Positions 1,782-60,007 of a stretch of DNA of 64,000 bases are shown here, piece after piece. The translations under genes and the position numbers were made by a program. Below the pieces are notes generated by a model. The model was given only the letters and a program-made list of their open reading frames with translations, was not told where the DNA came from and did no database searches. Source of the stretch: Colius striatus (Eukaryota; Chordata; Aves; Coliiformes; Coliidae); contig NC_084771.1 in the NCBI RefSeq assembly GCF_028858725.1, forward strand, positions 10,134,915 to 10,198,914. Direction: 5' to 3'. Numbering within the stretch: position 1 is the first letter of the stretch; every line of letters begins with the position of its first letter.

Positions 1782-2014
1782 GTGTCCTGGTTTCAAGAAA
1801 TACAAATCTGAACTGCAAAGGAAAAAGAATCCCATTTCCAAAGGGAAGGAAAATCCCTCTGCCAAGGTGGAGACACACACAAACACGCCCAAGGATCCAG
1901 AGGTACCAAGCGGAGGATCCTCGCTTGTGGCAGAAAGCTCTGCAGCTGCTGTGGTATCGCTGGGGACTGCAGAGCCAGGACTGGTTAATCCAGCTTTTGA
2001 AGAGACTGAAGAAG
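1782..2014 (+). CDS. LNX3: LNX3 exon with Numb-binding NPAF motif
   Basis: The acceptor follows a CT-rich tract (AG at 1780-1781) and the donor is GTGAGA. The first base completes a split codon; the exon ends after base 1 of a codon. It encodes a basic, Lys/Ser-rich linker and then NPAF followed by an acidic EETEE stretch. NPAF rather than NPAY is, as I recall, the LNX2-like form. Confidence 0.85.
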
Positions 2015-5000
2015 GTGAGAGTTTGATACAGAAGTGTAACTATGTAGTTACCTTTTCTGACATAAAAATGAAGTAATTAGTTCAGTTTTTAAAGCATCCC
2101 AAACATTCTTGGATATGCCCAATGCTGTTTGGCTATTAGTAGCCACTGAAGTAATCCCTCTTCTCAGCTTGTGTTCATCTCAGAGGTGTTCATCTGTGTC
2201 AGGTGTGGCAGGAGCTACTTGCAAGCATAAAACTGTCTGTGCAGAACAATTTGGAGAATCTCAGACTGCAAGTGAGCATTTGGAGTACTCTTTGCAGAAA
2301 CAAAGGCAGTCCTTGTCAATGGGAACATGCAGCACTTAAAGTGCTTGCAGAAGCCAAATAATTAGTAATTGGGAAGTGTTCCAGATGCTTTTTAATCTTG
2401 TTAAGAAAGTTAAATATACAGTTAGTTTCCTGGAGTGGTCAGTACCTCCCTAATGGTGTGCAGCAACTGTGGGGTTTTATTTAGCATAGCTTAGGTTTTG
2501 GATTAATACTCAGTTATGAAACCCTTGCAGATAAAAGTAACCATCTCCAGTGTAGAACCTCTTGTCTCAACCCCCTGTTAGAAGGCAGCAGCGTGGAAGT
2601 CTCTGTGCCTTGTTTCAAAGTTAGTCTCAGTTTCCAAGTGTGCAGGTGCTGGAGCTGGCCACTGCTGTGCCTGTGTCAGAGTTAAAACTCAGGTCAGTTT
2701 ACTTTTCTCTTGTTTTTCTTCCCTGAAGTAACACTTGGGGCAAGTTTTGCATCTCTTGTGTGACAACTGCAGATCATCCTGACAGGCAGTGGGCTTGGCT
2801 TCCTTAAGAGTCTTGGGCCTGCCTAAATGTTGCAGTGCTGGTACATTTAATACAACTTGCTAACAACAACTTTCATCTTCAAAGTGGCTGAGAAGCATTG
2901 CTTAAGTCTTCAGCATACTGTAAATAGGTAAACATTACTGCTGTTCTACAGGGAGGATGGGAAAAGAGGAGGAAAGGAAATTAGAGGAGGGAAGTTGCAG
3001 TGAGCTGCTTGTGGTAAAGTCACTGTAACTGCAGACCAGTAATTAGAGCTCAGTAGTCCCCTTTGCTAATGGGCATCGTGGAAATGAGCATTTGCTATGT
3101 GCTTCTAGTTAGCCAGCTGTCCCAGTGGGGAAAGAAATCCTTAAGTGACACATACTGAATGCCCTTTCATAAAACACAAGAAACAATAATGAAAACCTTT
3201 AACTTTGCCATTAGCTAGAAGGAGATGGGAAACAAGCTGGAAAATCTTTAAAGGAACAGGGACTTTTTAAGCTCTTAACCTGACCTATTCTTTGCTCTCC
3301 TGATAGCTGCTTTCCCTCCAGACTACTTTGAACACAGCCTGCCAGTCCCACAAGTCTTGTGGTTCTCTGTGAAGGAAAAGTCTATTAATGTGTTGGTTTT
3401 TTTTCAACTTCCACCATCAGACCTCCCTCAGAGAACGAGTCTTGTGGCTGAAACAACTACAATTGACATTCACCGGGAAGACCCGGAGGAAGAGCTGGGG
3501 ATGAGGATAGTTGGGGGTAAAGACACCCCACTAGGAAACATTGTCGTTCAGGAAGTCTTGCACGATTCTGTCATTGCTGCAGATGGAAGAATAGCACCTG
3601 GGGATCATATTCTGGAGGTAGGTAAAACCCCACTGGTAGTACCATGGCTTTTCACTTGAGATGAAGGGCTGGGGGAGGAGAGTTGCCTAGAAAAGCTGTG
3701 AAGTCTTTACATCAGAGGGTTTAAAACCACTGATCAGACTTGTACGTCAGTAGCATTGTGTGTCTTTTGGGGCTGAGAAGTAGATGCTTGAGGTTCCTTC
3801 CAGTCATACTCTTATTTACCTTGCATATTTGATAGCTTTTTGAAATTTAGACCATTTTAGAGAAAGGAAGAAGATTTCTACCTGAGGAATTTCCCCCAGT
3901 AGCACCATTTCTCTCCAGAGGACTCTGCTCATGTTAGGAAGTCTTATCATTGCTCTACTATGTTGCTTAAGCTGCATATTCTCAATGGGCAGGTCCATAT
4001 TTTAAGACCTTACGACTTGAAGTAAGTATCAGCTATGCAACGTGAGTAATAGAGAGCACCAGCCTCATACCATCCTGACCCACACACAGGTTTGGTGTCC
4101 AGATTACTCATGCTGCATGGCAGTGGGCTGATCATGGTGACAGATGCTTGTAAGCAGCAGTAAAGCCTTCACACAGCAAGAACTGTTAGCAGCTCCTGGC
4201 TATTGCTGCCCAATCATTTGACAAACCTTAAAGGCCTAATTATCTGTTGTACTCTGGACCTCTGTGAGGTCTGGCAGCCCCACATGCACGAGGGGCTGAT
4301 ACAATCTCCCAGATGGTTTATTAGACCAATAGTTGAATTGCACATGTCTTGGCCTTGGATGTAAACAGGGCAGTTCCCCACACTTAGTAGCCCTATTAAC
4401 ATTCTAAAAGAAGCCTGAACAGTCTTATGTGACAATAGACAAAGTGAAAAGCAGCTTCTTGCAGTTAACTTGGCAAAAGCATGGTTAGACTGATGATTCA
4501 AGAAGCTCCTCAACTTAAAAGTGAGGATGGGTAGTCTCCAATTTGAGTTTTCTCAACGTGTGTGTTGAGTGCTGGAAGTTCAAGCAGTTCTGCATTGCCA
4601 TGGGATGCTTGTAACAATTTGCTGTTTCACAGTTTCAGGTCTGTTAGTTATTTGAATTGTCCTGTCATGTCCCTGTCCTCAGCTATTCCCCATCAGTTAT
4701 GTACTGTATCCAGTTTTGGGCTCCCCAGCTCAAGAGGGACAAGGAACTGCTGGAGAGAGTCCAGTGCAGGGCCACCAAGATGCTGAGGGGACTGGAGCAT
4801 CTTCTTTCTGAGGAAAGACTGTGGGACCTGGGGCTGTTTAGTCTGGAGAAGACTGAGGGGAGAGCTCATTGATATTGACAAATATCTCACTGGTGGGTGT
4901 CAGCAGGTTGGGGCAGCACTCTTTTCTGTTGTATCCAGTGACAGAACAAGGGGTGATGGAAAAGCTGGAACACAAAGTTCCATTTAAACATAAGGAAAAA

Positions 5001-58800: not shown

Positions 58801-60007
58801 TTGAGCTCAGTGAGGTTCTGAAGCAAGGCCAGAGCTCCCAGGCTGTCTTTGAACAACCAAAAACTCCAAATAGCAACCTGGTTTTCAACTGGACTGCTGT
58901 AAAAAAAAACTGGGCAAATTCATTACAAGTGTTTTATTTTTTTATTTATTGTTTGCCCTGGGGTAAAAATGAAGGAGAAAAATTTGCTCAGATGGATTTG
59001 GCAGATCGAGAAGATGCATCCAGCTGCATTTTAGTATATTGTTAATATGACTCAACAGCTACTGCAAGAGGCTGCAGAGGTAGTGTAGCTGCGTGGTATG
59101 ACATCATAGAAAGTTGTAAGAGCCAAATAACCCTTTTCCTCACAAATTCTGGAAAGGATACAGAAGGAGGATATAAAATGAAGCAAATGAAAAGCACCAG
59201 AGAATGAAAGAGAAGAAAGAAAAAAAATCCAAGAGACAAAGAAGTCAAAATGTAGCAATCTGAAAAACCCCTGACAATTATGTAAAGAATTTAAAACCAT
59301 AACCAAGAGTTTTGTTACAAGAGTTCATTAATTGTTACACATGAATTTTTATTAAACTTGTGCTCAGTAAGATGACAGGACTCTAGAGAAAGCAAGAGGC
59401 TTATTGGCACTAACTTTCAGAACAAAACAATTATTGTCATTTTGAAAAGGTACTAAAACCCTAATTCATTTGTAGATTTAACACTATAATGTTTCTTCCT
59501 TAAAGCTTCAGAAAAAAACCAGAGTCTTTTCCATGAAAACTGTCTGAATATAAACTCAAGGCTTGTCAGACATGGAGAGGTCTAGTGTTTGAAATAATTC
59601 AATGCACACAGGAGGTGGCAAAAACCCCAGCTATCGCTAAAGCCAGGTTAATAGGGTCTTGCTTTCATGTAGGTGGCTTGGATGAGAACAGCATGATGCC
59701 ACGTTGAGCTTCTCTGTGTTTACTGTGTCAATAATCACAGCAAGCACTGCAAATCATTTTTTCTTGTTTCAAAGTACACTGTGGGGACTGGTCATCAACC
59801 AGCTAGTTCATACAAGACAGAATTAATTCACCAGCCTTCAGTGCAGCACTGGCCTGCACTGCACTGTGGATTCACGTGCAGGCATGTGTAACACGAGCCA
59901 CTGCACACACTGGATCTGTTCATTTAAAAGAATAGTTTAATCTCACACTTACCTTCCCTGTCAGAACAGAAGGAAATTCTGTATCAAACTTGTTGCTCAA
60001 GCCAAAC
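49800..60007 (-). CDS. CHIC1: CHIC1: cysteine-rich hydrophobic domain protein 1, exons 2-6 (5' exon outside window)
   Basis: CHIC proteins are small, palmitoylated, membrane-associated proteins of plasma membrane and vesicles with a conserved Cys-rich hydrophobic core. Five exons join in frame on the - strand: 60007-59953, 53463-53308, 50947-50891, 50661-50602 and 49850-49800. They give 125 residues ending PKYPIFRPD and TGA. The core [20 protein letters not shown] is in the second of these. Residues I recall as CHIC1-type rather than CHIC2-type are [36 protein letters not shown] and PKYPIFRPD. The acidic first exon should lie right of the window. The gene lies in tandem upstream of FIP1L2 on the same strand. 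Nothing suggests decay. Confidence 0.9.
50602..50661 (-). CDS. CHIC1: CHIC1 exon 5
   Basis: Acceptor TTTCTTAG, donor GTAAGT, phase 0 at both ends (20 codons). It encodes [20 protein letters not shown]. The open frame runs on past the donor, but the protein continues in exon 6. Confidence 0.94.
50891..50947 (-). CDS. CHIC1: CHIC1 exon 4
   Basis: Acceptor CTTTTTAG, donor GTAAGA, phase 0 at both ends (19 codons). It encodes [19 protein letters not shown], almost identical across CHIC proteins. Confidence 0.94.
50948..53307. other. CHIC1 intron with one forward CR1 copy
   Basis: GT-AG intron. Its only recognisable element is the CR1 fragment at about 52381-52734. Confidence 0.6.
52381..52734 (+). 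repeat. CR1 LINE fragment, forward orientation
   Basis: It runs from GGAGACTGCAGGGGGAACTC through GGTTGGGGCAGCACTTTTTT and GGCTGCCCAGGGAGGGTGTG to CCATTCTACGATTCTGTGAT, the CR1 terminus. It shares with the 4.7 kb copy the variant GTTGTATCCAGTGACAG, so both are one subfamily. Confidence 0.93.
53308..53463 (-). CDS. CHIC1: CHIC1 exon 3: Cys-rich hydrophobic core
   Basis: Acceptor CATTGCAG, donor GTAAGT, phase 0 at both ends (52 codons). It encodes [20 protein letters not shown], then [20 protein letters not shown], the palmitoylation-type cysteine cluster, ending CLNKR. Confidence 0.96.
53464..59952. other. CHIC1 intron, no recognisable element
   Basis: About 6.5 kb of A/T-rich intron. It contains a 15-A run (54416-54430). 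I find no CR1 terminus, RNA gene or further coding exon on either strand. Confidence 0.55.
54416..54430. repeat. Poly(A) homopolymer run (15 A)
   Basis: Fifteen consecutive A inside the CHIC1 intron, with no retroposed gene sequence visible just upstream. Confidence 0.9.
59953..60007 (-). CDS. CHIC1: CHIC1 exon 2
   Basis: Acceptor TTTTCAAG, donor GTAAGT. One base completes a split valine codon, then [18 protein letters not shown]; phase 0 out. FDTEFPSV is the CHIC1-type form. Confidence 0.92.

Follow-up and report, generated by a model that had tools for sequence, protein, structure and literature searches.

In frog, the protein-coding counterpart of the eutherian X-inactivation centre consists of the genes Cdx4-Chic1-Fip1l2-Lnx3-Rasl11c-Uspl-Wave4, and order and orientation are the same in chicken (PMC2430539; statements on the papers cited here refer to excerpts of them). 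The next published neighbours beyond WASF are SLC16A2 and RNF12. According to the literature, eutherian XIST, TSX, JPX and FTX arose from this block, with XIST being derived from LNX3 (PMC2430539; 2025 review PMC12101419). Here, we analysed a stretch of 64,000 bases from the bird Colius striatus (positions 10134915-10198914 of contig NC_084771.1, referred to as C15), which will be called the window. The preliminary description of this DNA had proposed that it represents the ancestral block with LNX3 and FIP1L2 still coding, and we are nearly certain that the window represents the X-inactivation-centre region in its protein-coding, non-eutherian state and carries LNX3, FIP1L2 and CHIC1. The block as such is already known, because PMC2430539 describes it for chicken and frog.

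Positions are given relative to the window (1 is its first base; negative numbers and those above 64000 lie to its left and right, respectively), and whole-genome searches covered the 1.21-Gb assembly with its 191 contigs. Gene content, order and strand, open frames, splice-site letters and the positions of paralogues were read directly from the assembly, whereas names within a gene family were assigned by identity and neighbours and are to that extent provisional. Both LNX3 and CHIC1 can be read as complete genes with open frames, and FIP1L2 comes close to this (Table 1). As first described, an LNX gene on the forward strand and a FIP1 gene on the reverse strand converge, followed by a CHIC gene on the reverse strand; strands and stops agree with this arrangement, the LNX3 stop ending at 14152 and that of FIP1L2 at 19034. 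The limits originally proposed for the block, 1782 and 60007, turned out to be exon borders: coding exon 2 of LNX3 starts at 1782, and 60007, as the highest coordinate of CHIC1 exon 2 on the reverse strand, is the base with which that exon begins.

The nine coding exons of LNX3 join to one open frame of 683 residues, and all eight introns are bordered by GT/AG. The joined protein scored 214.1 bits for Pfam PDZ over four stretches and 32.2 bits for zf-C3HC4 (RING), and the domain matches of the block go far beyond what chance would give; this architecture of a RING and four PDZ domains belongs to a gene distinct from the LNX1 and LNX2 copies located elsewhere in the assembly. The next genome matches of the PDZ3 exon in the window were located at C1:20.79 Mb (65%, LNX2) and C4:70.69 Mb (49%, LNX1), and the best relatives among solved structures were LNX2 (2.4e-56) and LNX, which is LNX1 (4e-46). 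The gene of this type has been described as most similar to LNX2, and the name LNX2b was proposed for it; the "LNX3" of that paper is PDZRN3, another gene (PMC3162930). Judged by its family, the product of LNX3 (also LNX2b) would use its RING and PDZ domains as an E3-ligase scaffold. A CpG island at -14400 to -13100, approximately 12 kb upstream of the RING exon, is a candidate for the LNX3 promoter.

Between 35785 and its stop codon, which ends at 19034, FIP1L2 comprises ten exons with 440 codons and nine out of nine introns bordered by GT/AG; a probable exon 1 precedes them. Its Fip1 motif (PF05182) was recovered with 60 bits in the genome search. Compared by identity rather than by tree, 60 of 76 residues are shared with the FIP1L1 of the same genome, which itself shares 73 of 76 with human FIP1L1. 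The gene carries the Fip1 motif and differs from the genome's own FIP1L1; it presumably encodes a Fip1-type paralogue of the poly(A) factor. Two CpG-rich stretches (18700-19500 and 21800-22600) overlap the last two FIP1L2 exons and are therefore perhaps exonic rather than promoters. A weaker Fip1 match at C6:67198246-67201323 was rejected as FIP1L2, as it resembles FIP1L1. It consists of two exon-like pieces approximately 1.1 kb apart with 86.8% and 74.4% identity, the second of which contains a stop, and is apparently a decayed unspliced copy.

CHIC1 is composed of six coding exons (179 residues) with GT/AG at all five introns, and by family its product is expected to be a cysteine-rich hydrophobic protein. 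The CHIC1-type residues noticed in the preliminary description are borne out by a tree of 70 columns and four rows (human rows included), in which the window sequence groups with CHIC1 and the copy on contig C4 with CHIC2 (100/99). Four additional matches of the CHIC1 probe (near 8274-8321, 174345 and 217424; E 0.23-0.71) were dismissed as cysteine-rich chance matches.

The neighbourhood is consistent with these assignments. On C15 the order is WASF, USP12/46-like, RASL11C, LNX3, FIP1L2, CHIC1, CDX4, so that the gene set, order and neighbours match the published frog and chicken block. CDX4, which had been predicted to the right of CHIC1, was found there, the nearer of two copies with its ATG at 84075 compared to 66314 for CHIC1, and both the RASL11C and the USP-like gene expected to the left of LNX3 were detected together with WASF. 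In the 40 kb adjoining the window on its left side, nothing resembling RASL11C was obtained below E 0.39, and the genome search placed the gene ~50 kb to the left. The Uspl gene of Duret probably does not correspond to USPL1, as six out of six PF15499 rows fall at C1:22.09 Mb. Since the USP46 probe finds the USP12/46-like gene on C15, this gene is presumably Uspl.

Alternatively, the window could represent the PDGFRA/GSX2 paralogon with LNX1, FIP1L1 and CHIC2. This 4q12-type paralogon (GSX2, CHIC2, LNX1, FIP1L1, RASL11B, USP46) contains the same gene families, and on contig C4 the LNX match on the forward strand and the FIP1 match on the reverse strand are likewise convergent. However, in the present genome it lies separately on C4, with LNX1, FIP1L1, CHIC2 and GSX2 at C4:70.41-70.73 Mb, whereas C15 has CDX4 and RASL11C; CHIC2 is at C4:70.44 Mb (86%) and FIP1L1 at C4:70.73 Mb. 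Of the neighbours named beforehand as speaking for this paralogon (PDGFRA, GSX2 and SCFD2), GSX2 was searched for and found at C4:70.41 Mb beside CHIC2 and not on C15, the other GSX-type homeodomain being GSX1 at C1:20.92 Mb (150 of 159 candidates scored). Together with the CHIC tree, these positions leave practically no likelihood to the paralogon. The C4 set comprises GSX2, CHIC2, LNX1, FIP1L1, RASL11B and a USP46-type gene, and the C1 set RASL11A, LNX2, GSX1, CDX2 and a USP12-type gene. The best three of 24 RASL11 rows were C4:70.95 Mb, C1:20.67 Mb and C15:10.0847 Mb; USP12/46-type copies were found at C4:71.02-71.03 Mb, C1:20.61-20.63 Mb and C15:10.042-10.058 Mb, WASF copies on C30, C3, C1 and C15 (10.0007-10.0038 Mb), and CDX copies on C1 and C11 as well as two on C15. 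The genes of the window belong to one of the ParaHox-linked blocks originating from the early vertebrate genome duplications, with CDX4/CHIC1/LNX3 on C15, GSX2/CHIC2/LNX1/FIP1L1 on C4 and CDX2/GSX1/LNX2 on C1.

It is also very improbable that the block is a remnant with at least one gene already a pseudogene, or that it carries a noncoding XIST-like RNA. In eutherians XIST arose from LNX3, as the literature states, and FIP1L2 coding exon 2 is left with no confident candidate. Nevertheless, joining the exons at canonical splice sites gives open frames throughout, which upholds the proposal that LNX3 and FIP1L2 would still be coding, one FIP1L2 exon being unsettled. Furthermore, an Rfam scan of the 64,000 window bases yielded 0 families at gathering score, and the 12 tandem arrays in the window span at most 62 bases each, unlike the long repeats of XIST. 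Chicken and Xenopus, moreover, are stated to express Lnx3 in different tissues of males and females alike (PMC12101419). The C15 block presumably has no chromosome-silencing role.

Several points weigh against our assignment of the block to LNX3, FIP1L2 and CHIC1. FIP1L2 exon 1 (E 0.66) and exon b (E 2.5) were placed by weak matches, and a search between exon 1 and exon a returned weak candidates only for coding exon 2. The trees proposed in the preliminary description were obtained in part: CHIC groups with CHIC1, but the LNX tree, based on one exon with 80 columns and five rows, places the window gene outside the LNX1 pair with 80/85, which is under the starred level of the tool, and leaves LNX3 and LNX2 unseparated, and for FIP1 the comparison is by identity. 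In addition, the flanking-gene probes are human proteins (RASL11B, USP46, WASF1), and some USP-like and WASF rows, on C15 and other contigs alike, span stops, perhaps by read-through into introns.

Table 1. Coding exons and neighbouring genes of the C15 block. E values of FIP1L2 exons refer to matches with FIP1L1.
Feature	Position	Strand	Remarks
WASF	C15:10.0007-10.0038 Mb	+	human WASF1 probe
USP12/46-like	C15:10.042-10.058 Mb	-	human USP46 probe
RASL11C	C15:10.0847 Mb	+	human RASL11B probe
LNX3 coding exon 1, RING	-1196..-808	+	left of window; frame-joined to exon 2
LNX3 coding exon 2, NPAF motif	1782..2014	+	LNX2 match 2.35e-4; AG/GT; frame joins RING exon
LNX3 coding exon 3, PDZ1 first part	3421..3617	+	
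LNX3 coding exon 4, PDZ1 end and PDZ2	5376..5744	+	Pfam PDZ 62.5 bits
LNX3 coding exon 5, PDZ2 end and serine-rich linker	8207..8389	+	placed by frame and splice sites; completes PDZ2; no probe match of its own
LNX3 coding exon 6, PDZ3 first part	8763..8937	+	
LNX3 coding exon 7, PDZ3 second part	9096..9306	+	
LNX3 coding exon 8, PDZ4 first part	12770..12928	+	
LNX3 coding exon 9, PDZ4 end and stop	14017..14152	+	
FIP1L2 last exon j and stop	19034..19166	-	E 7e-12
FIP1L2 exon i, R/E/D	22094..22252	-	E 1e-9, low-complexity filter off
FIP1L2 exon h, R/E/D repeats	23577..23769	-	E 8e-7, low-complexity filter off
FIP1L2 exon g, proline-rich	28439..28637	-	E 1e-6, low-complexity filter off
FIP1L2 exon f	30217..30322	-	E 0.001
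FIP1L2 exon e	30913..31037	-	E 0.009
FIP1L2 exon d, Fip1 motif	31791..31921	-	PF05182, 59.8 bits
FIP1L2 exon c	33399..33509	-	E 4e-13
FIP1L2 exon b	34577..34635	-	weak match, E 2.5; supported by its order, its frame and the splice sites
FIP1L2 exon a, acidic stretch	35679..35785	-	E 4e-8
FIP1L2 possible coding exon 2 (uncertain)	37041..37117	-	alternative start 37096; compatible in frame and splicing only; splice sites score weakly; not matched by the probe
FIP1L2 probable coding exon 1 (ATG)	40969..41062	-	weak match, E 0.66; donor GT; within CpG island
CpG island over FIP1L2 exon 1	40500..42000	.	probable promoter
CHIC1 coding exon 6 and stop	49800..49850	-	
CHIC1 coding exon 5	50602..50661	-	
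CHIC1 coding exon 4	50891..50947	-	
CHIC1 coding exon 3, cysteine-rich hydrophobic core	53308..53463	-	one further genome match with E under 1, on C4 (86%)
CHIC1 coding exon 2	59953..60007	-	
CHIC1 coding exon 1 (ATG at 66314)	66154..66314	-	right of window
CDX4 copy A	ATG 84075, stop ends 75673	-	C15:10.2106-10.2190 Mb; 260 residues, C-terminus HQVMVSE
CDX4 copy B	ATG 106707, stop ends 93114	-	277 residues, C-terminus LQQVVASQ

Right of the window, two tandem CDX4-type genes are present on the reverse strand, both of them open (75673-84075 and 93114-106707; C15:10.2106-10.2416 Mb). In CDX4A and CDX4B, as they will be called, introns at matching positions separate three exons, and five collinear DNA blocks are shared between the copies: the exons themselves, a block upstream of them and one within intron 1. 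With its caudal activation region and its homeodomain, and being closest to CDX4, CDX4B is probably a CDX4-type tandem duplicate; at E <=1e-5 its exon 3 matched itself and CDX4A only (61 genome candidates scored). The core of exon 1 (codons 27-139) showed a Ks of 0.04 and a Ka of 0, compared to a Ks of 0.40 for the first 26 codons and a Ks of 0.86 with a Ka of 0.13 for exons 2 and 3. The copies differ at 92 out of 780 aligned coding sites, and the longest identical run comprises 302 sites in exon 1 (copy A 83985-83684), whereas the longest run seen in any of 20000 shuffles was 101. At third positions, the copies differ in 13 of 143 sites of exon 1 and in 43 of 117 of exons 2 and 3, with a longest identical run of 100 out of 260, again reached by 0 of 20000 shuffles; the shuffles disregard that constraint may vary from exon to exon, a point answered only partly by the third positions. 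An intron-1 element is common to both copies (80249-80543 and 101432-101746), with 88.6% identity over 316 columns including 22 gaps, and the intron-1 block is nearly identical over much of its length. This element could possibly be a duplicated enhancer or a second conversion tract.

The identical tract in exon 1 next to diverged exons 2 and 3 points to old tandem duplicates that later underwent gene conversion, unless the assembly errs, as the identity may reflect an assembly patch within exon 1. On balance, we consider it somewhat more probable than not that CDX4B is a fourth Cdx (ParaHox) gene, that is, an old tandem duplicate of CDX4 with three open exons, in which most of exon 1 would have been homogenised by recent gene conversion while the homeodomain exons and the C-terminus diverged. 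The pair departs from the complement stated for jawed vertebrates, which typically have three Cdx genes, chicken being named, with two Cdx1 in teleosts (PMC4522105). In coelacanths, and by PCR in the other groups tried, no further ParaHox genes besides Pdx2 were reported (PMC4471637), and according to PMC2543028, which counts one zebrafish Cdx4 locus, no Cdx gene had been found as a fourth member dating from the early genome duplications. A set of Cdx4, Chic1 and Lnx is, however, placed at two sites on zebrafish chromosome 14, one being an inverted duplication (PMC2430539); duplicates of the Cdx4 region have thus already been reported in fish, which counts against simple novelty. Among those open-licence papers from searches for an extra Cdx4 in birds or reptiles whose titles and abstract openings were inspected, none was visibly concerned with a tandem CDX4, which does not show that the pair is unpublished. 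If the duplicate is old and shared among sauropsids, the rule that jawed vertebrates have three Cdx genes has to be corrected, and CDX4B may either share the axial role of CDX4 or have split it with that gene. If the assembly is right, the pair represents a clear case in which gene conversion was limited to one portion of a gene for a developmental transcription factor.

Farther to the right, pieces of a receptor tyrosine kinase (Ig, kinase) were observed on the reverse strand at ~180575-194764, one of 40 residues being closest to VEGFR2 (57 bits). This gene is probably kdr-like; kdr-like, the fourth VEGF receptor, was lost in eutherians and has been reported in chicken (PMC2367445). The window itself has 45% GC and a CpG observed/expected ratio of 0.19. 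A frame at 4648-4869 on the forward strand is CR1-like and resembles the reverse-transcriptase end of a CR1 retrotransposon.

Compared to the block of Xenopus and chicken, the C15 block contains the same genes in the same order, including coding LNX3 and FIP1L2, with RASL11C, the USP-like gene and WASF on the LNX3 side, but it differs in its two tandem CDX4-type genes, as Cdx4 is named once for frog and chicken in the excerpted text of PMC2430539. With the eutherian X-inactivation centre it shares the orthologous position near CDX4 and CHIC1 (PMC2430539), whereas its gene content differs by coding LNX3 and FIP1L2 in place of XIST and TSX, so that the C15 block is usable as an outgroup for comparisons on the origin of XIST.

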